64,000 nt of DNA. Origin: Lewinella sp. 4G2. Lineage in GTDB: Bacteria > Bacteroidota > Bacteroidia > Chitinophagales > Saprospiraceae. A program made the translations under genes and the position numbers. Shown here piece after piece: positions 4,449 to 63,981 of the stretch. Location: positions 2,976,001-3,040,000 of the forward strand of contig NZ_LVWJ02000014.1 in the NCBI RefSeq assembly GCF_001625015.1, written 5' to 3'. Under the pieces are notes generated by a model. That model made no database searches and was not told the origin of the DNA. It saw only the letters and a list, made by a program, of their open reading frames with translations. The first letter of the stretch is position 1; every line of letters starts with the position of its first letter.

Positions 4449-7415
4449 CTAGCGTTTGATAAAGGACGCCGTGGCTTCTCCACGATCAGTAACTACTCGC
4501 ACTAAGTAGGTCCCCGCCGGGAGGTCATGCACCTCGAACAGTGTGTCCGTGGTCCGTTGAAGTTCCTGCCCGCCCATGCTTAGTAAGCTGGCGGAAATCA
4601 GCTCCAGGCCGTCAGCCAGTTCAACTGAAACCAGGTTCGTGGTAGGGTTGGGAGAAACTACTAGCCCGATACCGGCCGCAGTAACTATTGGGTTCTTGGT
4701 ATCGACGAGATATTGGCCACCCGCAGCACCAGTACTGAGCGCCAGGTTGGTGAACTTGAGGTTCATTTCACTAGCTGGATCATTTAAAGGAGAATACAGC
4801 TCAAGGCTGCCATTTAGTAGAGTATCCTGGTGCAGAAGCAGTACTTCTTCCGGATTCAGTGGAGCCCGGTAGAAGAGTAAATCTTTGATGGTGGCATCCG
4901 TAAAATCTCCGCTAGTACCCGCCACCGAGAAACTCTGTACGACGAAGTCATCTTCAGAAACTTCACCCGCTAGCTCGCCATCAACGTACAATCGTAACTG
5001 CGTCAACCAAGTTTGGTAGGTAACGGTGATTGTGTGGTTCTGCCCATCCTGCACGTCTATCATTGCTGTAAGGCCATTGCTGAAGGATGGCTTTACGGTG
5101 ATGCCTTCTCCGGTGATGTTGAGTTCTCCAAGCGGGCCGGCGTCGGTATCCGGCACGAACGTAAAATTGGTCGGCCCCTCCGTTGCCCGGTAATCGAAGG
5201 ATAACGTCCATGATTCGAGATCGTCTTCGACGCGATAGTCCAGTTCAGTCCTGGCAACCTCTACGCCTGGAGAAGGCACGTAAACTGGAGGGGTTTTGCC
5301 GCGGTCCAATGCGTCAAACATGCTTGGGACGAAGGCTTTGAAGAAGGCCCGGTGACCAAGATCATTAGGGTGGCCGATGTCGTCCTGCAAATTAGAGATC
5401 CAGCGGCCAGCTCCATTGTCCACCGGGCCGAGCACATTCACGCTGGGTACGTCCCGCGTGTAGATCCACTGGTTGATGTCCTTGATGAATTGGTAGTCCT
5501 CCGCATCGTAATCACCCCGCGGGTAGTTACTGACGATAATGGGCGTCAGCCCCGCCGCCCGGGAGCGATTGATCAGCGTCGTCATATTATCCTGGAACTG
5601 ATCGTAGATCCGCTGGCCGCCGTTGCGGATACCTTCGTTCGCCAGACTGAGGCCAATGACGACGTAGCGACCACAGTTATCTACTACATCGGATCCAAAC
5701 CGGTCTAGTACATTGACCGTGTTCTGTCCGCCGATGCTTACATTCTCAAAGGTGTAATCATTTGGACTAGCGTCGTCGTCAAAGCGATCCCGAAGGAGGT
5801 TGTTCAGTCGGAAAGCGTAGCCCATGTCCATCGGCGCACCCTGGCCGCGTGCTACGGAGGAACCGATCACGGTTATACCGACCTCGTCGCGTTGCGGGCA
5901 GATGTCGAAGTTGTCGTATTCGAGCATCCGGAGGGCGTTGATGTAGCCCGCGCCGCCGAGCGCATCGACGACGCGCAGGTTAATCGTGCCGGTCTCGTCC
6001 GGCTTTACCAGTTCGGTGATCGCGATGTTGCTGGTATTCCCATTAAATCCATTCGCCCCTAAGCCCGGTCCACTCGTTTGCAGGTCTACGCTGCTGCCGT
6101 TAAGGCCCGAGGCGTCGTACTGGGTGGTTTGGGCTACGTCCCGCGCTCTGCTACCAAACAGGTGAAAGCGGTAGCCGCGGTCGGGGTCCAGACCGCTGAA
6201 GGTCAGGATGCCGGAGTTGGAGGTGAAGAAAAAATCCTGAGTCGCTTCTGCCAGACCAAGCGGTCCGATGGTGGTTTGGTCCGGATCCAGTAAGCCACCG
6301 GCATCAGCGGCGCGGGCGGACATTGCCTTGCCGATGGTCAGCACCACGTCGGACGCCATGCCGCTACCGTCAATCATCGGAATGGGGGCAGCGCTACCAA
6401 AGGGTTGGGTGCTGTTATTCCAGTGAATGCCATTTTCGTCCGGGGCGGGGGAAGGCGCGGCATCGGTCCCACAATCCAGGTAAAAACTTCGTGCGGTCTG
6501 GTTGCTGATCTGCAATTCAATTTGGGCGCTGACGCGGGTACCGGGTTGAGTGGAGACGGCATACACCACAATAATACCATTCTCTATCGCGGTGAGCACT
6601 CCATTCTCATCAATGGTAGCCTTAAAGGGATCTTCAACGGACCAGGTAACGGTTTGGAAGGTGGCGTCCGCAGGCTCAATAGTCGCACGTAACTGGATTG
6701 AACCGCCGTTTTCACTGATGTCGTCACCTGTAATAGTGATGCTGGTGACTGGGACAAACGGGTCGCCCTCCAGCTCTTCCACCTTTAAGCCACCCAGGTA
6801 GGCGAAATCACCCGCGGTCCGCTTCACGGTAAGGGTGAGCTCTGTCTGTCCGGCTGGTACGGTAAGGCTGACGGTAGTATTGTTGTTGCCGTTGTAGCCA
6901 TTCGCACCCACACCACCTCCGGACGTAGTCAGGGTGACGGACTGGCCCGCTTGCCCATCTATGCTGTAGGAGGTCTGTCGAGTCTGGGTGTTATTGCGGG
7001 TACCAAAGAAGGTGAAACGATGCTCCTTTGTACCATCCAGATTATTGATGGTGATCTTGGCACTATCCCGCGTGAAGAAGTAGTCCTGGGTGACGGTAGG
7101 AATAGCAAACTCCCCGAGCAGGTCCGCCGAGGGAGCAAGCAGGCCACCGTGGTTGATTCCATTCGTGGAGAAGGCGGATGCAGGGAAGATGTTCCATGCA
7201 CAATCCGCTCCGGAAGAAGAAAGGATGCCATTCGCCATCGGCTGGGTGGGATTGATGACGCTGTTCCAGACCTCACCGGTTGCGGCATTCATACTGGTGG
7301 CATTACCGTTTGTGCCATCGTCCGGTCCAAAGTCGACGTAGACCGTCTTGGTGACGGTTTGTGCGTTGAGGCAAAGGGACAATAGCGAAATCAGGAGTAG
7401 TTGGAGGTAGCGCAT
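4449..7415 (-). CDS. Secreted multidomain SGNH-hydrolase-like protein with T9SS sorting domain
   Basis: 988 residues with signal peptide (MRYLQLLLISLLSLCLNAQ). Domain order: a malectin-like module (about 22-215), a Big_2 Ig-like domain (about 220-306), a second malectin-like module opening with FYLDCGTD (about 310-490), an SGNH/GDSL esterase-like domain (GSSVARGQG near 518, catalytic-type DIGHPNDLGH near 681), a LamG/concanavalin-like domain (about 700-880) and a T9SS C-terminal domain (VSPNPTTNLVSVEL... ending FIKR). The combination suggests a surface or secreted carbohydrate esterase with binding modules; the substrate is unknown. Its stop lies 16 bases from the convergent DUF1501 stop. A copy of the dispersed 18-mer falls at the end of the Big_2 domain. 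Confidence 0.85.
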   Translation of the reverse strand: MRYLQLLLISLLSLCLNAQTVTKTVYVDFGPDDGTNGNATSMNAATGEVWNSVINPTQPMANGILSSSGADCAWNIFPASAFSTNGINHGGLLAPSADLLGEFAIPTVTQDYFFTRDSAKITINNLDGTKEHRFTFFGTRNNTQTRQTSYSIDGQAGQSVTLTTSGGGVGANGYNGNNNTTVSLTVPAGQTELTLTVKRTAGDFAYLGGLKVEELEGDPFVPVTSITITGDDISENGGSIQLRATIEPADATFQTVTWSVEDPFKATIDENGVLTAIENGIIVVYAVSTQPGTRVSAQIELQISNQTARSFYLDCGTDAAPSPAPDENGIHWNNSTQPFGSAAPIPMIDGSGMASDVVLTIGKAMSARAADAGGLLDPDQTTIGPLGLAEATQDFFFTSNSGILTFSGLDPDRGYRFHLFGSRARDVAQTTQYDASGLNGSSVDLQTSGPGLGANGFNGNTSNIAITELVKPDETGTINLRVVDALGGAGYINALRMLEYDNFDICPQRDEVGITVIGSSVARGQGAPMDMGYAFRLNNLLRDRFDDDASPNDYTFENVSIGGQNTVNVLDRFGSDVVDNCGRYVVIGLSLANEGIRNGGQRIYDQFQDNMTTLINRSRAAGLTPIIVSNYPRGDYDAEDYQFIKDINQWIYTRDVPSVNVLGPVDNGAGRWISNLQDDIGHPNDLGHRAFFKAFVPSMFDALDRGKTPPVYVPSPGVEVARTELDYRVEDDLESWTLSFDYRATEGPTNFTFVPDTDAGPLGELNITGEGITVKPSFSNGLTAMIDVQDGQNHTITVTYQTWLTQLRLYVDGELAGEVSEDDFVVQSFSVAGTSGDFTDATIKDLLFYRAPLNPEEVLLLHQDTLLNGSLELYSPLNDPASEMNLKFTNLALSTGAAGGQYLVDTKNPIVTAAGIGLVVSPNPTTNLVSVELADGLELISASLLSMGGQELQRTTDTLFEVHDLPAGTYLVRVVTDRGEATASFIKR
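6525..6542 (+). repeat. Dispersed 18-mer copy 1
   Basis: GGCGCTGACGCGGGTACC, one mismatch to the core (GTAC for GTGC). Inside the SGNH gene, at the end of its Big_2 domain, antisense to the gene; the gene reads it as GTRVSAQ. Confidence 0.7.
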
Positions 7416-7541
7416 ACAAATCAGTTGATGCTACAAAGTACGTACCTCAGAAGTGCATTCCGTACCCTACTGTCGCACCTTCCAATGCTTTGTCGTTCGG
7501 TTCTTAAAATCAACCCGGTCCTAACTGCTTGCCTATTCCAT

Positions 7542-7559
7542 TGCACCTGCGGCAGCGCT
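7542..7559 (-). repeat. Dispersed 18-mer copy 2
   Basis: TGCACCTGCGGCAGCGCT on the plus strand, so the motif lies in minus orientation. Exact core match. Intergenic. Confidence 0.8.
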
Positions 7560-7682
7560 CTGTAATAAGTCTCGTACTTTACTCGGGCGCACCTTGATGG
7601 TGGAAGCGATCAGTGGTGGGGAAGGCGGGAACAATCATTTCCCGGTGGTCTAAATTTCTCCGGTGATTCTCCCATCGCTCCC

Positions 7683-7690
7683 TATCTTTC
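7683..7690 (+). promoter_or_regulatory. Putative -7 box of the helical-protein gene
   Basis: TATCTTTC followed by G, close to the Bacteroidota TAnnTTTG element, 44 bases before the ATG at 7734. No convincing TTG -33 box at the usual spacing. Confidence 0.4.
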
Positions 7691-7733
7691 GTGCGTTCAA
7701 TACGTACTTTCAGCGCATAAATCTAATTGTGAT

Positions 7734-8771: not shown

Positions 8772-8788
8772 GGGCTGGTGTAACTTGG

Positions 8789-9027
8789 TTTCGACAAGAA
8801 GTTTAGGAAGGAAAGGAGGGAAAAGAAGTTTTATAGCTAACGCTCCTCTTTCGTCTCTACCGTCTTAATCGTCTTTGCGAAATTAGAAAGAGCTCAATTG
8901 CGCGGCATATATTTAGCTACGCTGCTCCTACGGGGTCGCAAAGGCGTAAAAGAAGATTAAGACGAATGAGGAGACACATATAGCCGTCTTCTTTTCCCCC
9001 TTTATCTCCTTATCCCCCTTGTCGAAA
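8789..9027. repeat. Large imperfect inverted repeat filling a convergent intergenic gap
   Basis: Two arms of about 92 bases, 8789-8880 and 8936-9027, are imperfect reverse complements. The outer ends match (TTTCGACAAG with CTTGTCGAAA), the middles match (AAAAGAAG..TAGCTA, CGTCTTAATC with GATTAAGACG), and the inner ends match (CTTTGCGA with TCGCAAAG) around a 55-base spacer. It fills the space between the stop at 8771 and the convergent stop at 9029. It could be a MITE-like element, an oversized bidirectional terminator or the source of a structured RNA. No target-site duplication was recognised. Confidence 0.75.
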
Positions 9028-10694: not shown

Positions 10695-13391
10695 TTACAG
10701 CTTATAAAAGAAGGTCGCCAAGAAGTACCGCCCCAAACTATTCGCCGAAGTTTCACTGGTGATGAACTGCGTCACCCGGCGATTGATGACCTGATTCTGG
10801 TTGAATAAGTCCGAACCGGATAGCCGGACGTAATGTCCCTTCTTCTTGAAGGGCCGCACCTCCAAACTAACTACCGCGTCGTACAATTCCTGCTTCGGCG
10901 CAAAGTCCGTCTCCGCGTAAATGTTGTAGGCGAAGCGGCTTTCCAAGCGCAATATTGGGGTAAATTCCAGACCAGTTGAAACGCTGATGTTGTGGACCAC
11001 CTGATTGGTATTCGCCGATTCGGCGTCGTCGAAACGGTTACTCTGGTCGGTGATGCCGTAGCCGAAGGTGAAGTAGCTGTCCTCGTTGAGCTCCGTGGTG
11101 ATGTTGGCCGAAGCGTTGAGGTTGGCATTGATGTTGGTGCGGCTGGCTCCGTCCACAATACCCTCGCCGCGGTTCCAGAAGGCGCCGCCATTGATCTCCA
11201 TCTGGCCATTCAGGAAGGCCATACCGATGGTACCTCCCAGATTGAAATTGGCCCCCCAGGCGTGGCTCACGTTAATGGGCTTGAAGACCTGCTGGTTGTT
11301 CGTAAAGGTGACCTCGTTGCCGAAGGCATTGTCCGTGTAAGTGACACCACCGTTACCGTAGATGGAAATAGCTTTGAATTGATCGTTGAACCAGAGATAC
11401 CCGTTGGCATTCGCCACCTCCTGTGGCGTAAGGTCGGGATTGCCAACGCTAATCTGTCCGGTAACGGAGGGCTGAGCAATGGTCTGCAATCGCTGGATGC
11501 CCGGCTCCCGCACGGAAGTGCGTGCGTTCAGGCTGAGGTAGCCCTTTTTTAAACGCTTGCGGTAACCGATGTAGGGGAGCACGTAATTGAAGTTAGTGGA
11601 TTGATCAATATCCCCCGCTAATCCTAACGTGGCGTTTTGGTAGTTGACACCAAAGTTTAGGTTACCTCCTTTCTCGTACCGGCGAATGAGGCCAACGCTT
11701 CCCTCCGCCTGCGTCCAGGTCTTTTCCAGAATGTTGGTGGTGGTGGCCTCGTTGAAGATGAACCGGTAATCACCCTCTTCGGCGTCGCGGGTAAATTCGG
11801 TACCCAAACTAAGATTCCACTTCTCACTAATTGGTTCCCGATAGGTTGCCTGGCCATTAAAATTGAGCGTGTTCGTCAGTCGGTCCTGGCGTTGGCGGCC
11901 ATCTATCAAGGCGCCGGGGAGGCGCACGGCGAGATCCTCACCTAAACCTTCGGTTAGCAGGTCAACGTCGCGTTGGTTGGTGGAATAGTCGCCGCCGACG
12001 CGGAAGCGCCAGGAGCGTTCTCGGTTGGTTTTCGACCGCACGTTATAACTGGCGCTGAGACTGCCATTGCTCTGTCCCACCTCGCTGTTGTTATCTACCA
12101 AAAAGTCCTGATCGTCCACTCCCGCTTCTTTGACCAGTGTATTCGAAAAGTCCTGGTTGTCACCGGCGCTGATGTTGAAATTAGCATTAACTCGGAGGCG
12201 ACCAGTCGTATCAATTTTTTGGCGCAGTTCCGCCCCGAAACTGTGGCGGTAACTCTGGGCGGCATTTGTTTCATCCGTAGCGATGACGCGGTTATCACCC
12301 GTCCGGTTAAAAGACTGAAGGTTCTCGGAGAGCTGGGTCTGGTTACGGTCGAAAAGCGCGTAATCCGCCGTCAATTGCCCGTCCTTTCCAATGGTCTTAC
12401 CGAAGTTGAGGCCAGCGGCAATGGATCGGTTATCGCCCGTCGCATCACCGTCGCGTTGTAGCCCCTGGGTCTGATCGCCGCTCTCGTTGCTGGACCACCA
12501 GAAGCCACCACCCCGGCCGGAGCTGGAATTAAAGCCCGAGATCTCGTCGCCACTGAAACCAACCTTATTGATGTTGTTGATCGTCCCCAGTACGCCCCAC
12601 TGGGTGGCATCGCTGATCCGGAAACCCTTACCACCCGCTTGGTAGCGTTCCTGCGTGCCGCCGCCTGCGTAGACGTCTCCGAATACCTTGGCTTTGAATT
12701 CTTCCTTGGTTTCTAGGTTAACGGTAATGTTTTCGTTGCCGTCGTCGTTACCTGTGATCTCCTCATCGTCACTCTTCTGGTCGTAGACTTCAATGTTCTT
12801 TACGGCCTTAGCGTCCAGGTTCTGGGTGAGTAGAGTAGTATTCCCACCAAAGAAGGGCTTGCCGTTGATCATCACTTCGCTGATGGGTTTGCCCCGCCAG
12901 GTGATCTGCCCGTTGGCGTCTACCGTCATGCCTGGCAGGCGGCGCAGGAGGTCTTCCACCACGGCGTTTTCACCCACGGCGAAGGCTTCGGCGTCGTACA
13001 TCATGGTATCCCCGACCATGCGGATGGGGATGCGGTCCGCCGTCACCTCGATACCGTTCAATAAAAAGCCGGCGGGGTACATCCGGAGCTCCCCGAGGCC
13101 GAGGTACTGGTCTTCCGCGGTGATCTTCAGGGTTTGGTCGCCGCGTTCAAATCCGATGAAGGACAGGCGAAGCAGGTAGTCCCCTGGGGCTACATTTTCC
13201 ATGCGGAAGATGCCCTTGTCGTCCGTCGTTCCGAAAGCAGTCAGGAGGCTGTCGGAACTTCTTAGCAGCACGGCATTAGCGCCGGGTAGGGTAGTGCCGC
13301 TGGAATCAACGACGGTACCAACAATCTCCGTTTGGGCGCTGACGCAGGTGCAGAAAAATAGGGTTAGGGTAAGGAGTAAAAAGTGTTTCAT
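10695..13391 (-). CDS. TonB-dependent-receptor-like outer-membrane protein
   Basis: 898 residues with signal peptide (MKHFLLLTLTLFFCTCVSAQ). A carboxypeptidase-regulatory-like beta-sandwich (about 21-105: VGTVVDSSGTTLPGANAVLL) is followed by a plug-like domain (VVEDLLRRLPGMTVDANG, VMINGKPFFGG) and a long barrel of the OMP_b-brl_3 type. This group usually lacks a clear TonB box and is often encoded with GLPGLI proteins, as here (upstream gene at 13461). The substrate is unknown; peptide or metal transport is sometimes suggested for the family. A terminator-like hairpin sits between the two genes. A dispersed 18-mer copy encodes the end of the signal peptide (CTCVSAQ). Confidence 0.9.
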   Translation of the reverse strand: MKHFLLLTLTLFFCTCVSAQTEIVGTVVDSSGTTLPGANAVLLRSSDSLLTAFGTTDDKGIFRMENVAPGDYLLRLSFIGFERGDQTLKITAEDQYLGLGELRMYPAGFLLNGIEVTADRIPIRMVGDTMMYDAEAFAVGENAVVEDLLRRLPGMTVDANGQITWRGKPISEVMINGKPFFGGNTTLLTQNLDAKAVKNIEVYDQKSDDEEITGNDDGNENITVNLETKEEFKAKVFGDVYAGGGTQERYQAGGKGFRISDATQWGVLGTINNINKVGFSGDEISGFNSSSGRGGGFWWSSNESGDQTQGLQRDGDATGDNRSIAAGLNFGKTIGKDGQLTADYALFDRNQTQLSENLQSFNRTGDNRVIATDETNAAQSYRHSFGAELRQKIDTTGRLRVNANFNISAGDNQDFSNTLVKEAGVDDQDFLVDNNSEVGQSNGSLSASYNVRSKTNRERSWRFRVGGDYSTNQRDVDLLTEGLGEDLAVRLPGALIDGRQRQDRLTNTLNFNGQATYREPISEKWNLSLGTEFTRDAEEGDYRFIFNEATTTNILEKTWTQAEGSVGLIRRYEKGGNLNFGVNYQNATLGLAGDIDQSTNFNYVLPYIGYRKRLKKGYLSLNARTSVREPGIQRLQTIAQPSVTGQISVGNPDLTPQEVANANGYLWFNDQFKAISIYGNGGVTYTDNAFGNEVTFTNNQQVFKPINVSHAWGANFNLGGTIGMAFLNGQMEINGGAFWNRGEGIVDGASRTNINANLNASANITTELNEDSYFTFGYGITDQSNRFDDAESANTNQVVHNISVSTGLEFTPILRLESRFAYNIYAETDFAPKQELYDAVVSLEVRPFKKKGHYVRLSGSDLFNQNQVINRRVTQFITSETSANSLGRYFLATFFYKL
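13335..13352 (+). repeat. Dispersed 18-mer copy 3
   Basis: GGCGCTGACGCAGGTGCA, exact core. It lies antisense in the receptor gene and encodes the signal-peptidase region CTCVSAQ. Confidence 0.8.
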
Positions 13392-15916: not shown

Positions 15917-16492
15917 ATGTCTACTCGTCTGTTGCTGCAAATTGGTGGCGCGTTCGCGGTTCTGGTTATCGCCTTATTCGCATCAACGAGCCAGATGGAG
16001 CGCAACGCCATTTTCGGGTACAACCAACCGACGGAATACCGACTCAGGCAAGCCTCCGCGAACGTCATACCCCTCAATCACCCCTGGAATGACGTGGTGC
16101 GCACGCACAACGCAGGGTGGCCGGCCTTCGATCATTTCTACCGCAATCAGATTCTGGCCGAAAGCAGCGCCCCCTACCACGATCATCTTCGTTTCAAGGC
16201 CATCAGCCACCTGGTTGCTGAAACCTATTTCTTGCTCAATGCGCCGGCGGAAACGCGCTGGTTTTACCTCCGCGAACTGGAAAGTCTCCCGTACATCCCT
16301 GACCCAAACGTGGCGCTGTCGCTGGTGCAAAGTTTGTGGGAGAATAATGGACCGGTCGACGTCGATCTCTACAACTTTACCCAGGGGATCGAGCACGACA
16401 ACCGGACGTACCTGGGGGAAGACGGTTTCGCTGCGCACAACGCCATGTACCGGGATACCTACGACGAACTTCGCCGGCTCGGTGACCTTTGA
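15917..16492 (+). CDS. Membrane-anchored protein of unknown function between kinase and regulator
   Basis: 191 residues. A hydrophobic N-terminal segment (about 4-22) is an uncleaved anchor or signal peptide; the rest is Trp-, Tyr- and His-containing and probably exported (HPWNDVVRTHNAGWPAFDHFY, IEHDNRTYLGEDGFAAHN). I recognise no domain. It starts three bases after the kinase stop, so it is surely co-transcribed with it. It may be an accessory sensor or modulator for the kinase; that is inference from position. Its length and spacing make a chance ORF unlikely. Confidence 0.75.
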   Translation: MSTRLLLQIGGAFAVLVIALFASTSQMERNAIFGYNQPTEYRLRQASANVIPLNHPWNDVVRTHNAGWPAFDHFYRNQILAESSAPYHDHLRFKAISHLVAETYFLLNAPAETRWFYLRELESLPYIPDPNVALSLVQSLWENNGPVDVDLYNFTQGIEHDNRTYLGEDGFAAHNAMYRDTYDELRRLGDL

Positions 16493-16599: not shown

Positions 16600-17343
16600 A
16601 TGAAAGTGCTGTACGTCGAAGATGAACCCCTTCTCGCCCGCATCGTCAAGGAATCCCTCGAAAGTAGGGGGCTCGACATTGATTGGTACACGGATGCGGA
16701 GGCCGGTAAGGATGGCATCCTGCAGGCGGGCAACTACGACATCGCGCTGCTGGACGTTCAGCTTCCCGGCGAAGATGGCTTTTCCATTGGGAGACGAATC
16801 CGGGCCTCCTTCCCGCGATTACCCATCCTCTTTCTTACCGCCAGAGTACAGGCGAAGGACGCCCTGGCGGGTTTTGAAGCTGGGGGCAATGACTACGTCC
16901 GGAAACCCTTCAGCATGGAGGAACTCCTCGTTCGCATGGAGAACCTCATCAATTTGGCGGAAGGTTCCGGACCGGGTTCACCCACTAACTCCGCACCCGC
17001 GGCAGCGCCCAATGTTGGGGTACGAGTGACCGGAGAAATCTATGAATTTGGGAATTTCATCCTTGATTACTCCAACCTGCGGCTAACGCTGGTAGGGGAA
17101 GAACCACGGGTGACTTCCCTAAGCCACCGTGAAGCGGAACTGCTTCGCTTATTTCTGCAGTCGCACGGAGAAGAGGTAATTGAGCGGAAAAAAATCCTGC
17201 TGGAATTGTGGCATGACGACGGCTTTTTCAACTCCCGTAACCTGGACGTTTACGTTCGAAAATTGCGGGCTCTCCTGGAAGCCGACCCGAAGGTGCGCAT
17301 CCTGACGCTGCGCGGCGTCGGCTACCGCTTTGTCGTTGAATAG
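16600..17343 (+). CDS. OmpR/PhoB-family response regulator
   Basis: 247 residues. Receiver domain (1-120) with acidic pocket E7/D8, phosphoacceptor Asp 52 (LLDVQLPGEDGF), Thr 80 and Lys 102 (YVRKPF). A linker of about 25 residues is followed by a winged-helix DNA-binding domain (FGNFILDYSNLRL to the end, ILTLRGVGYRFVVE). It is the presumed partner of the kinase at 14531. The 107-base gap upstream of the ATG could hold an extra promoter. The linker is partly made by a dispersed 18-mer copy, which reads as APAAAP. Confidence 0.95.
   Translation: MKVLYVEDEPLLARIVKESLESRGLDIDWYTDAEAGKDGILQAGNYDIALLDVQLPGEDGFSIGRRIRASFPRLPILFLTARVQAKDALAGFEAGGNDYVRKPFSMEELLVRMENLINLAEGSGPGSPTNSAPAAAPNVGVRVTGEIYEFGNFILDYSNLRLTLVGEEPRVTSLSHREAELLRLFLQSHGEEVIERKKILLELWHDDGFFNSRNLDVYVRKLRALLEADPKVRILTLRGVGYRFVVE
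16992..17009 (-). repeat. Dispersed 18-mer copy 4
   Basis: CGCACCCGCGGCAGCGCC on the plus strand; exact core in minus orientation. Encodes Ala/Pro residues of the response-regulator interdomain linker. Confidence 0.75.
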
Positions 17344-21531: not shown

Positions 21532-22656
21532 ATGGCGCAGCAACCCTCCATTCTCGTGATCAGTTCCTACCGAGAAACCCTGAATACCGTCCGGCCCGAG
21601 GGGCGCTGGTTCCTGGGCTTGGTGCGGGACCACGGCTACTCCGTCACGATCATGACGCCACGGGAAGAAGCGTCTTATTTAGATGAGATGGAAGCCGTCG
21701 GCGTCCGCATCATTGATTGGCATCCGAGCAGTAAATGGTCACGGGACGACTCCCGTAGGATTGCCGATGAACTGGCTGCCAATCACTACGATATTCTCCA
21801 CCTGTTCAACAACGTAAGCGTTGTCTCCGGGATCCGGGCAGCCTCCGGGTGGCCGGGGAAGGTGGTTACCTACCGGGGCTACACCGGTAACATCCACGCC
21901 TGGGATCCCACGGCCTACCTGGGCCACCTCAACCCAAGGGTGGATATGGTCACCTGCGTCAGCCAAGCCGTGGCGGATAGCTTTCCGGGAAAGCCGTTTT
22001 TCGATCCTAAGAAGTTAGCCGTGGTGGGAAAGGGCCACGAACCACAATGGTACGCGAACGTCGTCCCCACCGATCTCCAGCAGGAATTTGGCATCCCGGC
22101 GGAAAAGACCGTCCTCATTATGGTAGCTAACGCCCGGCGGATGAAGGGGATGAACTATCTGGGAGCCGCCATCAAGTCACTGCCCGAGGACTTGGGTCTG
22201 CACTTCCTCTTTGCCGGCCGTGGCCTGCAGACGCCGGACTTTCAAAGTGACCTAAAGGCTAGTCACTACGCTGACGCCTATACCTTCTCTGGTTTTCGCA
22301 CGGACGTACTCAACCTGATAGCTGCGGCCGACATCAGCCTGCTGGCCAGCGTGAAGGGAGAGGGTCTGAGTAAAGTATTGCTGGAATCCATGTTTCTCGG
22401 CCGCCCTACCATTATGACGGACATCGGTGGAAACAAGGGCCTGGCAGTGGACCACGAAACGGCGTTGGTCATCCCCCCAAAAGATCCTGTCGCCCTTTCC
22501 GCCGCGGTGGAGGAATTGGTCCTTACTCCGCACCTGCGGCAGCGCCTCGGTGAAGGAGCAAAGGAGTACATGGCGAAGCATTACGGAGCGGTGAAAACGA
22601 CGCAAGACTTGCACAACGCCTACGGTAAATTGTTGGGTAGGCAAGGGAACGAGTGA
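21532..22656 (+). CDS. Glycosyltransferase family 4 (group 1)
   Basis: 374 residues, GT-B fold. The N-terminal half has ILVISSYRETLNTVRPEGRW and a Rossmann-like acceptor domain; the C-terminal half has VLIMVANARRMKGMNYL, FLFAGRGLQ, and the donor-binding EX7E-like region GEGLSKVLLESMFLGRPTIMTDIGGNKGLAVD. It probably extends a surface glycan. A dispersed 18-mer copy falls in the C-terminal helix, reading HLRQRLGEG, a stretch that looks natural for the family, so the motif was accommodated without damage. Confidence 0.92.
   Translation: MAQQPSILVISSYRETLNTVRPEGRWFLGLVRDHGYSVTIMTPREEASYLDEMEAVGVRIIDWHPSSKWSRDDSRRIADELAANHYDILHLFNNVSVVSGIRAASGWPGKVVTYRGYTGNIHAWDPTAYLGHLNPRVDMVTCVSQAVADSFPGKPFFDPKKLAVVGKGHEPQWYANVVPTDLQQEFGIPAEKTVLIMVANARRMKGMNYLGAAIKSLPEDLGLHFLFAGRGLQTPDFQSDLKASHYADAYTFSGFRTDVLNLIAAADISLLASVKGEGLSKVLLESMFLGRPTIMTDIGGNKGLAVDHETALVIPPKDPVALSAAVEELVLTPHLRQRLGEGAKEYMAKHYGAVKTTQDLHNAYGKLLGRQGNE
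22529..22546 (-). repeat. Dispersed 18-mer copy 5
   Basis: CGCACCTGCGGCAGCGCC on the plus strand; exact core, minus orientation. Inside the GT4 gene near its 3' end. Confidence 0.75.
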
Positions 22657-39603: not shown

Positions 39604-39621
39604 GGCGCTGACGCAGGTGCC
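39604..39621 (+). repeat. Dispersed 18-mer copy 9
   Basis: GGCGCTGACGCAGGTGCC, exact core. In the divergent gap between the ALDH7 gene and the Uma2 gene. Confidence 0.85.
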
Positions 39622-40464: not shown

Positions 40465-40482
40465 CGCACCCGCGACAGCGCA
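40465..40482 (-). repeat. Dispersed 18-mer copy 10
   Basis: CGCACCCGCGACAGCGCA on the plus strand; exact core, minus orientation, in the presumed 5' leader of the helicase gene. Confidence 0.75.
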
Positions 40483-44348: not shown

Positions 44349-45110
44349 TCAATCCCTGTCTAGTTGTTGTCGCCAATTATTGGCCTCCGTCCCCATCCAC
44401 TCATCCCAGAAGGTGAAGTACAGCCCGAAGTGATACTTAGCTCGTTTGTGGTGCACATCGTGGTGCGTTGCCCCGACCAACTTCCCCAGCACCCGCGACC
44501 GCGCCCAGCTGCTTGGAAAGATCTCAACGCCAGCGTGGTTGATGGTTGCCGATAAGGTCATGATCGCCAGTAAACCCAAAAAGGCGTAGGCGTGCATGGG
44601 AATAAGCATGGCGGCAAGCGGGATAAAGATGGCCTGGAGAATGGCTTCGAGGGGGTGAAATGAAAAGGCCGTCCAAACCGTCGTCTCGATGCTTTCGTGG
44701 TGCCACCGATGGACGATCTCGTACACTCCCGGCCGGTGCATCCAGCGGTGGACCCAATAGTAATAGGTCTCTTGTGCGAGAAGAAATAAGATTGGGCCGG
44801 CGAAGAGCCACGCCCAATCCCAAGTGGAATCCAGGGTTTGGTAGAGTCGCGTCCAACCAGCATTCCAGGCGTAAAGCAACCCGATGCCGAAAGCCGCGAA
44901 AATCAGACTCACTACCGCCGAGCGCAAGATTTCCTTCCTCCGCAGCTGTGTAGCCGCTGCCGTGCGGGGGAAAATGCGTTCTCCCATTTTGCCCTTGAGT
45001 AAGTCCGTAAAAAGCCAGGCGTAGCCCCCACTGAACAGGAGGTAACGAACAAAAATGATCGCAAAAAGCGCCACGACCCACAGTAGCCAGTGGTTGAGGT
45101 CAGTCGTCAT
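44349..45110 (-). CDS. Sterol desaturase / fatty acid hydroxylase family protein
   Basis: 253 residues from the ATG at 45110; a longer frame upstream has no membrane-protein character. Membrane helices at the N-terminus and in the middle, with the di-iron histidine clusters: HRWMH, HRWHH and HHDVHH, plus NHAGVEIFPSSW. It should be an integral-membrane di-iron oxygenase acting on a lipid (sterol, hopanoid, carotenoid or fatty acyl); the substrate is not readable. It diverges from the UbiD gene. A dispersed 18-mer copy with one mismatch encodes ARSRVL before the last His cluster. Confidence 0.92.
   Translation of the reverse strand: MTTDLNHWLLWVVALFAIIFVRYLLFSGGYAWLFTDLLKGKMGERIFPRTAAATQLRRKEILRSAVVSLIFAAFGIGLLYAWNAGWTRLYQTLDSTWDWAWLFAGPILFLLAQETYYYWVHRWMHRPGVYEIVHRWHHESIETTVWTAFSFHPLEAILQAIFIPLAAMLIPMHAYAFLGLLAIMTLSATINHAGVEIFPSSWARSRVLGKLVGATHHDVHHKRAKYHFGLYFTFWDEWMGTEANNWRQQLDRD
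44488..44505 (-). repeat. Dispersed 18-mer copy 12 (one mismatch)
   Basis: AGCACCCGCGACCGCGCC on the plus strand; minus orientation, one mismatch in CTG. Inside the sterol desaturase gene. Confidence 0.55.
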
Positions 45111-45252: not shown

Positions 45253-47172
45253 ATGTACGCCAGCCAACGCGAAGCCGCCAACGATCTCGACCGCCACGGG
45301 CAACTGCTCCGCATCTCCCGTGAGGTAGATCCCGATCTGGAGATGGCCGAAATCCACCGCCGCGTATTCGCGAAGGGCGGCCCCGCCATCCTGTTCGAAA
45401 ACGTAAAGGGTAGCCCCTTTCAGGCACTCTCCAATATGTACGGCACTAAGGAACGAACGGACTTCCTCTTTCGAAAAACGCTCCCTAAGGTGAAGAAGGT
45501 GGTGGAGTTGAAGGCAGACCCCGCCAACCTCGCCAAATCACCACTGCGCTACACGGGGGCGCCTTTCACGGCGTTGAGTGCCCTGCCCCGGAAGCACCTG
45601 CGCCCGGCCATCAAGTACGGCCAGACGACGATTGACCAACTGCCGCTCGTCAAGTCTTGGCCAATGGACGGTGGGGCATTCGTCACCGCTCCCCAGGTGT
45701 GTACGTTGCCGCCAGGTAGCAAACAGGTGATGCAGACCAACATCGGGATGTACCGCATCCAACTCACGGGGAATGATTACGTAACGAATAAAGAGATTGG
45801 ATTACACTACCAACTCCACCGGGGCATTGGTAACCATCACGTAGACTACTTAAAATCTGACGAGCCCTTCCGCTGCTCCATCTTCGTGGGTGGGCCACCC
45901 AGCCACGCATTTAGCGCCATCATGCCGCTGCCGGAAGGCCTCAGTGAGATGACCTTTGCCGGCATGCTGGCGGGACGACGTTTCGGCTACGCCTGGGACC
46001 GCGACTGGCTATTGAGTGCGGACGCTGACTTCGTGATCACCGGAACCATCCGTAAGCAGGGCATGATGCCGGAGGGTCCGTTCGGCGATCACCTCGGTTA
46101 CTACTCTCTGCAGCATCCCTTCCCGGTGATGGACGTGGAGACGGTCTGGCACCGCAAAGATCCCATCTGGCAGTTTACGGTCGTTGGCCGTCCACCGGCG
46201 GAGGATAGCCAGTTTGGTTACCTGATCCACCAGATCGTGAAGGACCTTACACCGGGGGAATTCCCGGGCATCAAACAGATCAACGCAGTGGATGAGGCCG
46301 GCGTCCATCCGCTACTGCTGGCCATCGGTTCGGAGCGGTACATGCCCTTCCGGGAGGACGAGCAGATGCTGGTTCCGGAAGAGATCATTACCCAGGCCAA
46401 TCGCATCATCGGTAGTGGTCAAACTTCGCTGGCCAAGTACTGCATAATCGCTAACCACGCGGATGACCCAAATTTGGACGCGGATGACCAACCAGACTTT
46501 TTCCGCCACGTGCTCGAGCGCTACAATCCGGAACGGGATCTACACTTTCAGACTCATACCACCATCGACACGCTAGATTACTCTGGTGCTGGCTGGAATT
46601 CCGGATCCAAACTTATCTGGGCCTGCCGAGGTAAAAAACGTCGCAATCTGGCATCCGAAGTGCCCGAATACTTTACGTTACCGGAAGGTTTCGCGAATCC
46701 CCAAATCGTAGCCCCCGGTATCGTCGCGGTGGAGGGGCCGGCCGTTCCCGGGGCCGATCCTGATCCAGCCCGACTTGCCGAATTTCCAGCTGGCCCACCG
46801 GAGGACAAAGAGTTATTCGCCACCGCTGCCACCCGGAGTCGCTCAGATATGAAGCGCATCGCTTCGGCGGATCTGGGCGCTGCCGCAGGTGCCGTGCTGG
46901 AGGGGGGAATAGGACTGATCGTCGTGTGTGATGACGCCAACTTTATGGCGGAAGACTTTTCCAACTTCATCTGGGCCGCCTTCACGCGGAGTAACCCGAG
47001 CCACGATGTCTTTGGGCTGGATACCTTCGTGGAGCACAAACATTGGGGTTGCCGCGGGCCGGTCATCATCGACGCTCGGGTGAAGCCCTGGCACGCACCC
47101 GGTTTGGTGGCTGACCCAGAGGTCGCACGCAAAGTGGATCAATTGGTAGCGGAAGGTGTTCTTGACTACTAA
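45253..47172 (+). CDS. UbiD family decarboxylase
   Basis: 639 residues from the ATG at 45253; a GTG at 45172 would add 27 residues with no family support. UbiD pattern: GGPAILFENVKGSPFQALSNMYGT, prenyl-FMN region VQLTGNDYVTNKEIGLHYQLHRGIGNHH-like segment (about 180-215), PEGPFGDHLGYYSLQHPFPVMDV (Glu-Arg-Glu-type active-site zone). It should decarboxylate an aromatic or alpha,beta-unsaturated acid using prenylated FMN made by UbiX, which is not in this window. A perfect dispersed 18-mer copy encodes GAAAGA in the C-terminal region. Confidence 0.92.
   Translation: MYASQREAANDLDRHGQLLRISREVDPDLEMAEIHRRVFAKGGPAILFENVKGSPFQALSNMYGTKERTDFLFRKTLPKVKKVVELKADPANLAKSPLRYTGAPFTALSALPRKHLRPAIKYGQTTIDQLPLVKSWPMDGGAFVTAPQVCTLPPGSKQVMQTNIGMYRIQLTGNDYVTNKEIGLHYQLHRGIGNHHVDYLKSDEPFRCSIFVGGPPSHAFSAIMPLPEGLSEMTFAGMLAGRRFGYAWDRDWLLSADADFVITGTIRKQGMMPEGPFGDHLGYYSLQHPFPVMDVETVWHRKDPIWQFTVVGRPPAEDSQFGYLIHQIVKDLTPGEFPGIKQINAVDEAGVHPLLLAIGSERYMPFREDEQMLVPEEIITQANRIIGSGQTSLAKYCIIANHADDPNLDADDQPDFFRHVLERYNPERDLHFQTHTTIDTLDYSGAGWNSGSKLIWACRGKKRRNLASEVPEYFTLPEGFANPQIVAPGIVAVEGPAVPGADPDPARLAEFPAGPPEDKELFATAATRSRSDMKRIASADLGAAAGAVLEGGIGLIVVCDDANFMAEDFSNFIWAAFTRSNPSHDVFGLDTFVEHKHWGCRGPVIIDARVKPWHAPGLVADPEVARKVDQLVAEGVLDY
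46876..46893 (+). repeat. Dispersed 18-mer copy 13 (perfect)
   Basis: GGCGCTGCCGCAGGTGCC, sense orientation in the UbiD gene, read as GAAAGA. Confidence 0.85.
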
Positions 47173-49735: not shown

Positions 49736-51778
49736 TTGACCGGCCCCTTAACCCATTCCTCACTCGTTAAAGTAGTTGTCCTGCGTTCTTCGTCCGTCCA
49801 TAGTCGTTTGGTGATCCTATTGTTGTTGCTTGCCTTCCTCCCCGGCACCCGCGGCAGCGCCCAGGTGCTGGACCCCTCGGATGATGGCCGCCCGATGCCC
49901 GGTGACCCGGACTACGACGCCAGCCAGGACCGACGCGCCGGACCCCAGGAACAGCGGGAATCGCAACCCGATACTTTTGGCATCTTCCAGTACAACGCCA
50001 GCAACCCAAATCTGGAAAAGAGCTGGCGCGATAGCCTCCTGGACGGTCTGCAACGGTACGAACCGGACCGGAAAGTGGCCTTCGATTACGGGACCATCGG
50101 ACAACGGGGTGGGGCGGCGTACCGCCTGCGCTACGAGCCTACCCTGCGCACCGGGACGGAGATTGGTTTCCGCCAGTTTGACCTCTACCAGGTGGATGGT
50201 GAGCGCCTGAATTACTACCGGCTGGAACGCCCGTTCACCTACCTTGGCCACGTGCGCGAAAGCCAGCAGGAGGACAGCTGGACGACGGCCAAGTTCAGCC
50301 GCAACTTTGCTGATGGCGTCAATCTGCTGCTGGACTACACAAGAATTTCTCAGCAAGGCACGCAGGATCAGTACCCCAATCAGAATTTGCGGAATACTCA
50401 CGTGGCCACCGGTCTGAGCGTTCGGCCACCGGGGTCTCGCTACCGTGGGTTCTTCAGTTTTGCCGCGAATACCTACGAGCAGTTACAGAATGGAGGAATC
50501 GATCCAGCCTCATTTCTTACCGAGGAGAATCCGGAGGTGCAAAATCTTCAGTCACTGACGAGCCAACTGGATCAAACCCGATTGCGCTACAGTTTCCGGG
50601 AAGTGATGGCCACCCAGTACCTGCAGTTTGGTGGGCGGACGGATACGCTATCAGGTGAAGCCAAACGCGCTTTCACCCTGCAGCACCAACTCAAAGTGGA
50701 CAGTCGGAACTACCGCGTGAGCTCCGAACAGACGGTGGGTGATACGGCATTGTTCTTTCAGCGGTTCCCTCAACTTTACGTGGATCCACGCGGAGTGCGC
50801 AACCAAATCCAACACAACATCATCTCGAATGATTTTTCCCTGAGCACCTTCCGGCAGGGTAGGAGCGGCGATCGGGAAACCGTACAGAAGGACGTGCTGG
50901 AAGTTGGCCTCAATCACATCTACCACCGCGTGCGCCAAGATGGAGACTCCACGATCAATAACCTCCTTCTGCACGGGAAGATTGGCCTGCGTCCCAGCGA
51001 CCGGCTTAATTTACTGGTCGATGGTCAATTCAACGTGGTGGGGCAAACCGGTGATTACCGGGTTTCTGGCACCGGAGAATTGGACTTGGGTAAAGCAGGA
51101 AAATTAGAGTTGAAAGCGCTGAACCAGCTGTACGCCCCGGATTTGGTGCAGCAGACCTTCCGGCTCAATGGCAACACGCTGTGGCAGAACGATTTTAATA
51201 AAACACTGGAACTACGGTTGGAAGGCGCCTACACCTTGCCCGTAGTAAAGATCAGGGCGGGATTGGCGTATTCAATCCTGACAAACTATATCTACTTCGA
51301 TGAGCTGGGGCAACCCGAACAGGCGACTGGCCCCAACAGTATAATCCAACTGACGGGCGAGCGTGATCTGGCCTTCGGGAAATTTCGACTACAGAATCGC
51401 GTACTTCTGCAACAGGCCGATCAGGACGTGTTCAGGCTGCCGCAACTCTACGGAGAGCACAGCCTGTACTACTCCGGTAAGTGGTTCAAAGTATTGAACG
51501 TCAACCTCGGCGTGGACGTCCGCTACGCCAGTGGCTTCAAACCCTATTACTACAACACGATCACCCAGCAGTTTCAGCTGCAGGACGAACAGGAAAAAGG
51601 TTTCCAGTATCAGTTGGACCCCTTCTTTAGTATGCGGGTGACGCGGTTCCGCTTCTTCGTTAAGTACCTGCAGCTGAATTCTCAGTGGGATCAGCGCAAT
51701 CCGCTCATTCTGATGGCAGACCATCCCTACCCGGACGCAGCCGTGCGCATGGGAGCTACTTGGCGTTTGCTGGATTAG
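49736..51778 (+). CDS. Putative porin (Porin_10-like outer-membrane protein)
   Basis: About 680 residues. No ATG is available near the N-terminus; the frame opens at a TTG (49736), and the TTG and GTG at 49808 and 49811 are alternatives lying directly before the hydrophobic signal core LLLLLAFLPGTRGSAQ. The mature protein starts with a disordered Asp/Arg-rich stretch, then FGIFQYNASNPNLEKSWRDSLLDGLQRYEP and a long barrel (YEPTLRTGTEIGFRQFDLY, DWTTAKFSRNF-like strands) typical of Bacteroidota 'putative porins'. It probably forms an outer-membrane channel. A dispersed 18-mer copy encodes GTRGSA at the signal-peptidase site. Confidence 0.85.
   Translation: MTGPLTHSSLVKVVVLRSSSVHSRLVILLLLLAFLPGTRGSAQVLDPSDDGRPMPGDPDYDASQDRRAGPQEQRESQPDTFGIFQYNASNPNLEKSWRDSLLDGLQRYEPDRKVAFDYGTIGQRGGAAYRLRYEPTLRTGTEIGFRQFDLYQVDGERLNYYRLERPFTYLGHVRESQQEDSWTTAKFSRNFADGVNLLLDYTRISQQGTQDQYPNQNLRNTHVATGLSVRPPGSRYRGFFSFAANTYEQLQNGGIDPASFLTEENPEVQNLQSLTSQLDQTRLRYSFREVMATQYLQFGGRTDTLSGEAKRAFTLQHQLKVDSRNYRVSSEQTVGDTALFFQRFPQLYVDPRGVRNQIQHNIISNDFSLSTFRQGRSGDRETVQKDVLEVGLNHIYHRVRQDGDSTINNLLLHGKIGLRPSDRLNLLVDGQFNVVGQTGDYRVSGTGELDLGKAGKLELKALNQLYAPDLVQQTFRLNGNTLWQNDFNKTLELRLEGAYTLPVVKIRAGLAYSILTNYIYFDELGQPEQATGPNSIIQLTGERDLAFGKFRLQNRVLLQQADQDVFRLPQLYGEHSLYYSGKWFKVLNVNLGVDVRYASGFKPYYYNTITQQFQLQDEQEKGFQYQLDPFFSMRVTRFRFFVKYLQLNSQWDQRNPLILMADHPYPDAAVRMGATWRLLD
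49844..49861 (-). repeat. Dispersed 18-mer copy 14
   Basis: GGCACCCGCGGCAGCGCC on the plus strand; exact core, minus orientation. Encodes the signal-peptide end GTRGSA of the porin. Confidence 0.8.
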
Positions 51779-55688: not shown

Positions 55689-55706
55689 GGCGCTGCCGCA
55701 GGTGCG
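55689..55706 (+). repeat. Dispersed 18-mer copy 15
   Basis: GGCGCTGCCGCAGGTGCG, exact core. In the 240-base gap between the CBM48-fusion gene start and the CAT-like gene end. Confidence 0.85.
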
Positions 55707-56554: not shown

Positions 56555-56572
56555 GGCACCTGCGGCAGCGCC
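56555..56572 (-). repeat. Dispersed 18-mer copy 16 (perfect)
   Basis: GGCACCTGCGGCAGCGCC on the plus strand; minus orientation. Intergenic, upstream of the CAT-like gene. Confidence 0.85.
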
Positions 56573-60519: not shown

Positions 60520-60596
60520 GGTTTTTGTTGTGTTTCGCTTCCACGGAAATGGAAGATTAAGGTAGGGGAGCGGCTCGCCTACCAGCGTTTATCCTG

Positions 60597-61916
60597 TTAA
60601 ACCTTTGGTGCCCACCCAGCGGCGTATTCCCGGCTCCAGAGTGCCATGGCGTCCTCATTTTTGCTGGGTTTGCCGGTAGCAGGGTCGATGTCCAACGCGG
60701 CGCCCACCCGTTGGGCGATGTTACCGAGATGGCAGGTGGTTACGCTGACATTGGCGTCTTCGATCGGGCTATTGAGCTTAGCGCTGCCGTTGAGCGTTTG
60801 GATGAAGTTGTCGATGTGCCGCGCGTCGAGGGAGCCACCACCGGAGGTACCGAGGTTTACGCTCTTACCGCCTTCTTCCTCCTTGCGGATCTCCTTGCCC
60901 CACATGTCGTAAACGATATATCCCTGGCGGTCCATGAGCACACTGCCCTTGGTTCCGTGGATGAGGGAGCCACGTCCGCGGTTCCAGAAGCCCATGCCGT
61001 TGCAGCTGCGGCCTTCCCAGTTAATGGTTTTGTCGTCCCCATATTCCATCCCAACGATCTGGGTATCGTAAGCTTCCCAATCGTCATCGTAGTGGTAGCG
61101 GCCGCCGGAACTGGTGATTTTGGTGGGATAGTCCACGCCCAAGGCCCAGCGGCACATGTCGATCTCGTGGGTGCCATTGTTGAGGATCTCCCCGGTGCCG
61201 TAGCGCCAGAGCCAGTGCCAGTTGTAGTGGACGATGTTGTCCGTATAGTCCTCGCGGGGGGCGGGGCCCTGCCAGAGGTCCCAGTCCAGCCAATCCGGTA
61301 CCGGGGCGGGCTTGCCTTCGCCGATGCCATCACGCTTATTGGCGTACCAAGCCTTCCCGGCGTAGGCCTTACCAATGAGCCCGTCGTGGATTTCGGCGAC
61401 GATTTTATTCAGCGTTACTGAACTGCGGGTTTGGTTGCCCATTTGTACGTAGTGGCCGTATTTCTTCTGGGCGGCGACGAGCATATCCCCCTCGGCCGGG
61501 TTGTGGCTGCAGGGCTTTTCTACGTAGACGTGCTTGCCGGCCTGCAGGGCCATGATGGCCATGGGGGCGTGCCAGTGGTCCGGGGTTGCGATTACGACGG
61601 CGTCTACCGATTTATCGTCGAGGAAGCGGCGGAAGTCCTGGTCACCCTTCGGCAATTTCCCTCCTTCTTTCATGGCCGCCATTTGGCCCTTGGCGATGGC
61701 GCGGGTATCGACGTCGCCGATGCCGATCACGTTACAGTCAGCGGCTCCCGCAAAGGTGCCAGTGAGGGACGCTCCCCGCCCGTTTGTTCCGAAAACGGCA
61801 ACGTTGATCCGACGGTTGGCGCCCAGGATGTTGCCGTAGGAAATGGCCGGCATTCCGATCCCTAAGCCCGCACCCGCGACAGCGGCTGATTTGATAAATT
61901 TTCTTCTACTGGACAC
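60597..61916 (-). CDS. Gfo/Idh/MocA family oxidoreductase, Tat-exported
   Basis: 439 residues. Tat leader MSSRRKFIKSAAVAGAGLGIG. Rossmann motif VAVFGTNGRGASLTG, VIATPDHWHAPMAIMALQAGKHVYVEKPCSHNPAEG (the conserved EKP), and the C-terminal domain NNGTHEIDMCRWALGVDYP. It probably oxidises or reduces a sugar C3 or C1 position with a tightly bound nicotinamide cofactor in the periplasm. A dispersed 18-mer copy encodes AVAGAG in the Tat leader. Confidence 0.93.
   Translation of the reverse strand: MSSRRKFIKSAAVAGAGLGIGMPAISYGNILGANRRINVAVFGTNGRGASLTGTFAGAADCNVIGIGDVDTRAIAKGQMAAMKEGGKLPKGDQDFRRFLDDKSVDAVVIATPDHWHAPMAIMALQAGKHVYVEKPCSHNPAEGDMLVAAQKKYGHYVQMGNQTRSSVTLNKIVAEIHDGLIGKAYAGKAWYANKRDGIGEGKPAPVPDWLDWDLWQGPAPREDYTDNIVHYNWHWLWRYGTGEILNNGTHEIDMCRWALGVDYPTKITSSGGRYHYDDDWEAYDTQIVGMEYGDDKTINWEGRSCNGMGFWNRGRGSLIHGTKGSVLMDRQGYIVYDMWGKEIRKEEEGGKSVNLGTSGGGSLDARHIDNFIQTLNGSAKLNSPIEDANVSVTTCHLGNIAQRVGAALDIDPATGKPSKNEDAMALWSREYAAGWAPKV
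61869..61886 (-). repeat. Dispersed 18-mer copy 17 (one mismatch)
   Basis: CGCACCCGCGACAGCGGC on the plus strand; minus orientation, one mismatch at the outer core base. Encodes AVAGAG in the Tat leader of the Gfo/Idh protein. Confidence 0.6.
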
Positions 61917-61945
61917 GATCTACTTTTTTAGGTAATTAGGTAAGG

Positions 61946-63301: not shown

Positions 63302-63339
63302 CAGAAGAATTTGCCGTAAAGTAGGTAAAAAAGCGGCAT

Positions 63340-63355
63340 ATTGGAACGTTCCAAT
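63340..63355. promoter_or_regulatory. Perfect 16-bp palindrome in the divergent promoter
   Basis: ATTGGAACGTTCCAAT with a central CG. It lies 38 bases from the DUF1080 gene start and 17 bases from the START gene ATG. The form matches LacI/GalR-type operators. Confidence 0.65.
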
Positions 63356-63372
63356 CGCTCACCATCGCGCCC

Positions 63373-63981
63373 ATGCAATTCCTCCTTCCGGTACTCCTGA
63401 TTTTTGCGCTGTCGCAGGTGCCGGGGAAGGGGCAAGCACAAAATTGGACCCTCGAACACGATGAGGATGGCGTCAAAGTCTACGTCCGCCCCGAAGCGAA
63501 TGAGGATATGTCCGTAAGGGTAGAAACCAGTACCTCCCGCTCCGTAGCCGACGTGCAGGCCGTCATTGACGAGGTCGGCACCTACCCAGAATGGGTCCAC
63601 CGCTGCGGCGAGGCCTACCGCGTTGATGGTGGGTCGGACGACAACTACGTGTACTACTCCCTCATCGATATGCCCTTCCCCTTTTCGGACAAAGAAGTGG
63701 TGGCCCGCATCAACCAATCCATTGATGCGGAGACCGGAACCCTGACGCGGGTGATCAGCAGCGAGCCGGAGGCCGTCCCTCCCGTAAAGGGTCGCGACCG
63801 GTTAGCTACCTACGAGGCGGAGTGGAAAGTCAGCCCCACCGCGGACGGAAGGGTGAGCATCATCTGTACTTGCCGGACGGCCGCCGGCGCCGGGCTCCCC
63901 AATTGGCTACGCAAGGAAATCATGACTGGTGGCCCCGCCAAAACGGTCGCCAATCTCGTGGAGCGGTTGGAGGCGCGCTAA
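63373..63981 (+). CDS. START-domain protein with signal peptide
   Basis: 202 residues. The signal peptide ends near residue 23 (LLIFALSQVPGKGQAQ), then START/Bet v1-like features: WTLEHDEDGVKVYVRP, IDEVGTYPEWVHRCGEAYRVDGG, YYSLIDMPFPFSDKEVVAR, TYEAEWKVSPTADGRV. The fold binds a lipid or other hydrophobic ligand; in exported bacterial forms the ligand is unknown. It diverges from the DUF1080 operon and shares its palindromic control site. A dispersed 18-mer copy encodes ALSQVP in the signal peptide. Confidence 0.88.
   Translation: MQFLLPVLLIFALSQVPGKGQAQNWTLEHDEDGVKVYVRPEANEDMSVRVETSTSRSVADVQAVIDEVGTYPEWVHRCGEAYRVDGGSDDNYVYYSLIDMPFPFSDKEVVARINQSIDAETGTLTRVISSEPEAVPPVKGRDRLATYEAEWKVSPTADGRVSIICTCRTAAGAGLPNWLRKEIMTGGPAKTVANLVERLEAR
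63405..63422 (+). repeat. Dispersed 18-mer copy 18
   Basis: TGCGCTGTCGCAGGTGCC, exact core; sense orientation, encoding ALSQVP at the end of the START protein signal peptide. Confidence 0.8.

Follow-up and report, generated by a model that had tools for sequence, protein, structure and literature searches.

What could be the function of a DNA word that recurs all along a bacterial chromosome in both orientations? This question is raised by a stretch of 64,000 nucleotides from Lewinella sp. 4G2 (contig NZ_LVWJ02000014.1, positions 2,976,001-3,040,000; in the following termed the window, with positions given as letter counts within it), in which a reading of the bare sequence had noticed dispersed copies of the motif GCGCTGNCGCRGGTGC. 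The source genome (5.21 Mb) bears the code G000 in this analysis and the window lies inside its contig C14. About 17% of this genome was examined as sequence and the remainder through counts; statistics on 864 kb refer to one region of G000, with replicates on other contigs and in other species where given. The motif turned out to be the centre of a much longer site that is present in about 1,000 copies, with copies on the same strand excluding each other. We tentatively regard it as a polar self-DNA tag whose reader would act on one strand and belong to the machinery for end processing or recombination.

Abundance, anatomy and same-strand exclusion

In the whole G000 genome, 957 exact cores were counted at nearly equal numbers on the two strands (476/481), while the reversed pattern used as control did not give a single match, clearly corroborating the enrichment that had been suspected from the window. 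As the 88 exact copies found in 464 contiguous kb show, the core forms the strong central part of a longer, asymmetric site that extends over about 40 bp. The conserved core spans 16-18 positions and is preceded by a T-rich segment 3-6 bases upstream and by GG immediately upstream, whereas about 20 purine-rich bases follow downstream, with G at +19, A at +21/+22 and G at +25/+26 (core base 1 counted as 0). The variable core position, at which G had been claimed never to occur, is indeed free of G in the exact cores of the window and nearly so among the 88 copies (1% G).

With a position weight matrix, 194 sites were found in the 864 kb, equivalent to about one site per 4.5 kb, and only two in the reversed sequence. 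Site scores form one strong class with almost nothing below it. Between scores 4 and 16, only 14 matches were obtained, versus 15 in the reversed-sequence control, so that an excess of decayed copies or relics was not detected. Among the 194 sites, 117 are located in genes, 76 are intergenic and one lies on an edge. In the first 464 kb, 34 of the 88 exact copies are intergenic, which is about 3.5 times the non-coding share (coding fraction 0.89). Genic sites are balanced between sense and antisense orientation (56 and 61, respectively), although antisense copies are favoured 30-100 bp inside gene starts (22 versus 6) and sense copies just past stop codons (9 versus 1). The former preference may be due to tolerated signal-peptide codons. 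Owing to the overall balance, with local preferences at gene ends not amounting to a general rule, a role as terminator or promoter was rejected. Besides, several antisense copies near gene starts are found in apparent lipoprotein signal peptides and encode C-T-C-x-S-A-Q.

The most conspicuous property of the sites is their arrangement relative to each other. Neighbours alternate in orientation in 146 of 193 cases, compared to 96.7 ± 6.9 in shuffles, and this value was reached in none of 20,000 shuffles. The alternation is a consequence of same-strand copies excluding each other. At distances below 2 kb, merely 2 same-strand pairs were observed where about 49 are expected, whereas the 55 opposite-strand pairs (35 convergent and 20 divergent, about 24 of each expected) even slightly exceed the expectation of about 49. 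By about 4 kb, same-strand pairs are back at the expected level. When counting all pairs below 2.5 kb, 5 same-strand and 68 opposite-strand pairs are present in the 864-kb region (about 61 expected), 1 and 27 on other contigs of G000 (22.4 of each expected), 3 and 27 in G002 (30.1 expected), and 6 and 49 in G006, G019, G015, G001 and G007 taken together (about 51 expected). Summed over the seven species, this results in 15 same-strand versus 171 opposite-strand pairs at an expectation of about 165 of each. The surplus of convergent over divergent pairs is strongest in G006 (13 versus 1).

Same-strand gaps have a mean length of 7.9 kb and a coefficient of variation (CV) of 0.52, compared to 0.68 ± 0.05 in a random model with a hard core of 2.5 kb. 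Moreover, the plus and minus copies behave independently when shifted against each other, the one departure being that convergent pairs are too frequent at 500-1500 bp (19 versus 9.7 expected; P 0.0025, uncorrected and one of 12 comparisons). Hence, the copies on the two strands are two regular, nearly independent lattices. Irrespective of strand, spacing is also more even than random in the 464 kb (CV 0.69 versus 0.98), while the value of 1.70 for the whole 864 kb is caused by an empty island, without which it drops to 0.73. Within the window, the smallest same-strand spacing is 2,977 bp (13336 and 16313).

For comparison, the same pair statistics were established for uptake signal sequences (USS) of Pasteurellaceae, based on 509 copies in 75 of 80 loci listed, which had been picked for holding an extended USS and from which five loci of other taxa were dropped. 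Below 500 bp, the USS likewise has fewer same-strand pairs than expected (43 versus 101), and its neighbours alternate in 253 of 434 cases, aided by very close inverted pairs. However, between 500 and 2,500 bp the observed number of same-strand pairs (341) matches the expected one (340), showing no exclusion at the distances at which it dominates in Lewinella. In birth-death simulations of different reading models, hardly any close pairs survived orientation-blind uptake, and directional uptake eliminated one of the two opposite-strand classes, convergent or divergent, while enriching the other. Only models with same-strand redundancy, polar or strand-specific, spared both opposite-strand classes. 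The observed pairs come nearest to these models, which indicates that reading probably occurs in a single polarity, with one site covering several kb of its own strand.

Dialects, in-place origin and a motif-free island

The exact pattern is present in 18 of 40 genomes. It is carried by G000 itself and by 17 of the 20 congeners, but by none of the 19 genomes from other genera. With the relaxed pattern GGCG-N(4-6)-CGCRGGTGC, between 256 and 1,517 copies at about equal strand distribution were found in 18 of the 20 congeners (at most 14 in the controls), the low counts being those of G001 (17) and G011 (6), while the 19 genomes outside the genus show 0 to 11 copies. The motif is thus common across the genus. 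The outcomes named in the sequence-only reading as refuting it, a lack of genome-wide enrichment or absence from relatives, did not come about. In line with this restriction, no such motif was apparent in k-mer tables from four other genera of the family (80-120 kb each, two of the four tables being dominated by repeat-like words) and from three other families (100 kb each).

Within the genus, k-mer tables and matrices reveal distinct dialects, namely GGGCGCGGmCGCAGGTGC in G006, GGCGCGGwCGCrGGTGC in G019, GGGCGsCGGrGCGCrGGTGC in G007 and GGCGrCGGrGCGCAGGww in G001. The matrix of G019 was rebuilt with repeats masked, as an earlier model had carried heptanucleotide tandem repeats. Species-specific words resembling such repeats are among the most over-represented ones in G000 (AGTCTGT), G006 (TAGTTCA), G019, G021 and G023. 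Between dialects, the change affects almost all sites. Core letter 5 is a T in 181 of 193 sites of G000 and a G in 51 of 53 sites of G006 and 52 of 61 sites of G019. Four of the nine exceptions in G019 are in a frame where exchanging T for G would replace leucine by arginine, although this frame also includes sites with G (four in G019 and two in G006). At some aligned coding positions, both species have the site but differ in this letter. In G011, the system may have disappeared or its dialect may have shifted. On contigs C19-C22 of G002, spacers of 4, 5 and 6 bases are found in one genome, as if two dialects were mixed.

The folding of GGCGCT onto GGTGCC proposed for one strand is possible, but does not appear to be a conserved property. 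In G000, the predicted folding energy of the motif strand (40 best sites) is not different from that of mononucleotide shuffles (-3.23 versus -3.27 kcal/mol), and the same holds for G006 (-3.51 versus -3.53). The motif strand exceeds the stability of shuffles in G001 (-2.92 versus -1.70) and G007 (-4.08 versus -2.76), yet the G001 dialect lacks the GGTGC arm of the hairpin. A hairpin element was consequently rejected as explanation.

Most coding sites have apparently been made in place. For 26 coding windows, alignments with a flank identity of at least 40% were obtained from five relatives, using the best tblastn matches in the examined parts of these genomes, which are presumed orthologues. 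Of these windows, 22 are ungapped at the site, indicating replacement rather than insertion. The four gapped ones all show a flank identity of 0.50 or lower; random windows in the same alignments are gapped at 3.3% (n = 1,285).

The longest stretch of the examined sequence free of the motif has a length of 101,560 bp (C14:3226205-3327765), at an expectation of about 25 copies. Its GC content of 37-44% deviates from that of the genome (55%), and judged by composition this island looks acquired. Its genes are mostly on one strand, the GC skew amounts to about +0.09 to +0.10, and the part inspected contains many small unnamed frames. Spread of the motif by viruses was also considered and rejected, as the exact pattern occurs once per viral stretch among the 80 listed (at least 120 were found), which looks like chance.

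Possible readers and rival explanations

The strand-exclusive spacing, unlike that of both control motifs (USS and Chi), points to single-strand or polar reading. Candidate readers of a polar self-DNA tag would be an AddAB-type helicase-nuclease working on the ends of broken or incoming DNA, or else a factor binding the single strands that enter via ComEC. One tag would then cover several kb of its own strand, so that a second same-strand copy within 2-5 kb would be redundant and not kept, whereas a copy on the opposite strand would act independently. About one tag per 8 kb per strand might be maintained in native DNA by selection or by transmission bias, with recently acquired DNA still being devoid of tags, and a shift in the specificity of the reader protein could shift the whole set, giving rise to species dialects. 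We infer a role in recombination or self-recognition, as well as the kind of reader, from these patterns. Put more generally, the two near-independent lattices of a long and fast-evolving self-tag might represent a genome-wide strand-specific address system directionally read by an undescribed protein, a proposal that we likewise advance with reserve. If true, it would constitute a stringent species-specific password for telling native from phage or other foreign DNA while ends are processed or single strands imported. The self-DNA tags known so far come from few bacterial groups and are short; a long, dialect-forming one would now be added from another phylum, in a genus in which no convincing type IV pilus ATPase was found. 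A published description of the motif was not found in a limited literature search covering Bacteroidetes uptake, Lewinella motifs, competence and uptake in Saprospiraceae, Chi and dispersed or alternating motifs.

Among known systems, Chi of the RecBCD and AddAB enzymes is similar in density (50 sites in 250 kb of E. coli, compared to about one per 4.5 kb here), and its reading in one orientation would explain two independent lattices. Unlike Chi, however, the Lewinella motif comprises about 18 bp plus flanks and differs in dialect among related species.

Several results weigh against a polar tag of this kind. Chi sites read in one orientation have a length of only 5-8 nt, and the sequence information of about 40 bp appears long for a single-strand reader. 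E. coli Chi does not show same-strand exclusion (19 pairs observed and 15.0 expected in 250 kb). The simulations are of a toy kind and depend on parameter values that were chosen; in them, the Chi-like version still keeps 0.22 of the same-strand pairs and the strand-specific version none, compared to the 0.04 observed. A simple polar model does not predict the preponderance of convergent over divergent pairs (106 versus 65 below 2.5 kb in the seven species). Site strength and gap length are uncorrelated, both on the 5' side (rho 0.04, P 0.61) and on the 3' side (rho 0.13, P 0.075). Finally, motif-free genera have the candidate machinery just as well. PDDEXK_1 proteins of AddA/AddB size are encoded in 15 of 15 genomes, DprA in 15 of 15 and ComEC in 14 of 14. 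Y1-type transposases (Y1_Tnp), too, occur inside and outside the genus, in 14 of 15 genomes. Hence, none of the proteins found co-occurs with the motif, in contrast to what the sequence-only reading had suggested looking for.

The alternative closest to that reading's first suggestion is a DNA uptake sequence like those of Neisseria and Haemophilus, i.e., a motif recognized on double-stranded DNA at the cell surface and accumulating by transmission bias owing to preferential uptake, which we consider somewhat unlikely. In its favour, the motif resembles the USS of Pasteurellaceae and the DNA uptake sequence (DUS) of Neisseriaceae in its copy number of hundreds to thousands, in its presence on both strands as well as inside and, with enrichment, outside genes, and in its extended flanks, evenly spaced copies, taxon-internal dialects and scarcity in acquired DNA. 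ComEC and DprA are present as well, and R. columbina has been reported to prefer its own DNA, with short A-rich words listed as candidates (PMC7965970). An unusual uptake machinery with ComEC, DprA and ComF has been described for Bacteroidota (PMC8459023). The spacing of DUS is reported to match the conversion tract length (PMC2397512). What speaks against an uptake sequence is mainly the pair geometry, as the USS lacks orientation-dependent exclusion at 500-2,500 bp and the simulated uptake models, orientation-blind or directional, also remove opposite-strand pairs, which are undiminished overall in G000. For known uptake sequences, the orientation of the strongest site is reported to have no significant effect on uptake (PMC1939737). 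Besides, the same-strand exclusion reaching to 2-3 kb or more while leaving opposite copies free, the longer core and the pilus requirement set the motif apart from USS and DUS. A convincing PilB/PilT-type ATPase (PF00437) was not found in 15 genomes. Partial matches to this model in 13 of them score at most 24.9 bits (25.5 with neighbours) in frames of about 300-1040 aa, the cut-off of 24.9 being just reached in five genomes by frames of 875-968 aa covering part of the model, while G000 remains below it at 20.8 bits; other uptake machines would still be conceivable. Since the motif differs from both controls in pair geometry, from Chi in length and from the classical uptake systems in that no convincing pilus ATPase was found, it was assigned neither to the uptake sequences nor to the Chi class.

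A role in nucleoid organization or segregation, also proposed initially, would be compatible with the data only for a polar site. A polar chromosome-architecture site, at which a dedicated protein reading double-stranded DNA would stop a loop-extruding or translocating complex in an orientation-dependent manner, is in line with the asymmetry of the 40 bp, the polar pair statistics and the convergent excess at 500-1500 bp. Nevertheless, we regard it as unlikely, as a candidate protein is lacking, 117 of the 194 sites lie in genes and no clear orientation bias is seen along the G000 stretch examined. We know of no bacterial precedent for such a site. The FtsK-orienting polar sequences (KOPS) are likewise dispersed and polar, but the present motif lacks strand bias and is far longer.

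Even more doubtful is a substrate of a one-strand-cutting enzyme, such as an HUH/RAYT-like transposase or a site-specific recombinase, by which DNA between same-strand copies would be excised, so that these copies are purged. Such an activity would explain an exclusion that acts on one strand only and declines with distance, and Y1-type transposases are encoded in G000 and the seven congeners tested. However, Y1 proteins are also present in six of seven genomes outside the genus, replacement in place prevails among the sites in aligned genes, most copies are genic, decayed copies are lacking, and the outer hairpin is not conserved in the G001 dialect and does not surpass shuffles in stability in G000 or G006. 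The same applies to the comparison with repetitive extragenic palindromic (REP) sequences and bacterial interspersed mosaic elements (BIME) associated with RAYT, which share the many copies in both orientations, the species-specific sequence and the presence of Y1 transposases, but differ from the mostly genic motif in origin and in hairpin conservation. The tiny mobile repeat considered in the sequence-only reading is disfavoured, given in-place replacement and almost no decayed copies, and a modification target is unlikely in view of a length of about 40 bp. The motif might also merely reflect biased codon usage or base composition, or a protein motif that recurs, and coding copies are indeed confined to a small number of tolerated frames. 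This explanation can practically be dismissed, being already refuted by the counts (none for the reversed control and 0 to 11 in outside genomes, including G021 with similar GC content), by the 76 intergenic sites and by the occurrence of both orientations in genes.

Copies in the window

All 18 positions at which the motif had been claimed carry it, and two more copies were found, giving 20 in total (Table 1). Accordingly, the former count of 14 exact cores, three with one mismatch and one with an insertion at nine copies per strand had to be extended to 15, four and one at ten per strand, whereas the insertion itself stood. When allowing up to three mismatches, 29 matches are present in the window compared to 5.6 ± 2.4 in dinucleotide-preserving shuffles, a number reached in none of 100 shuffles. 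The claim of five intergenic copies agrees with our own simple gene calls, by which 5 of the 15 exact copies are intergenic; inexact copies are outside this tally.

Table 1. Motif copies in the 64,000-nucleotide window, with strand and basis of detection
Copy	Position	Strand	Basis
Core with one mismatch	6525..6542	+	pattern search
Core exact, intergenic	7542..7559	-	pattern search, gene calls
Core exact	13335..13352	+	pattern search
Core with one mismatch; absent from the earlier list	16312..16329	+	pattern search
Core exact	16992..17009	-	pattern search
Core exact	22529..22546	-	pattern search
Core exact	27496..27513	+	pattern search
Core exact; absent from the earlier list; surrounding ~40 bp resemble other places in the genome	27728..27745	-	pattern search
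Core exact	32219..32236	-	pattern search
One-base insertion in spacer	36208..36226	+	sequence inspected directly
Core exact, intergenic	39604..39621	+	pattern search, gene calls
Core exact, intergenic	40465..40482	-	pattern search, gene calls
Core exact	43861..43878	+	pattern search
Core with one mismatch	44488..44505	-	pattern search
Core exact	46876..46893	+	pattern search
Core exact	49844..49861	-	pattern search
Core exact, intergenic	55689..55706	+	pattern search, gene calls
Core exact, intergenic	56555..56572	-	pattern search, gene calls
Core with one mismatch	61869..61886	-	pattern search
Core exact	63405..63422	+	pattern search

An Rfam search of the window did not match any known RNA. 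The gene dnaA is located at 28814-30262, but the GC skew around it is almost flat and the origin could therefore not be placed. Sorting domains of the type IX secretion system (T9SS), a pointer to Bacteroidota, are present in two proteins encoded in the window.

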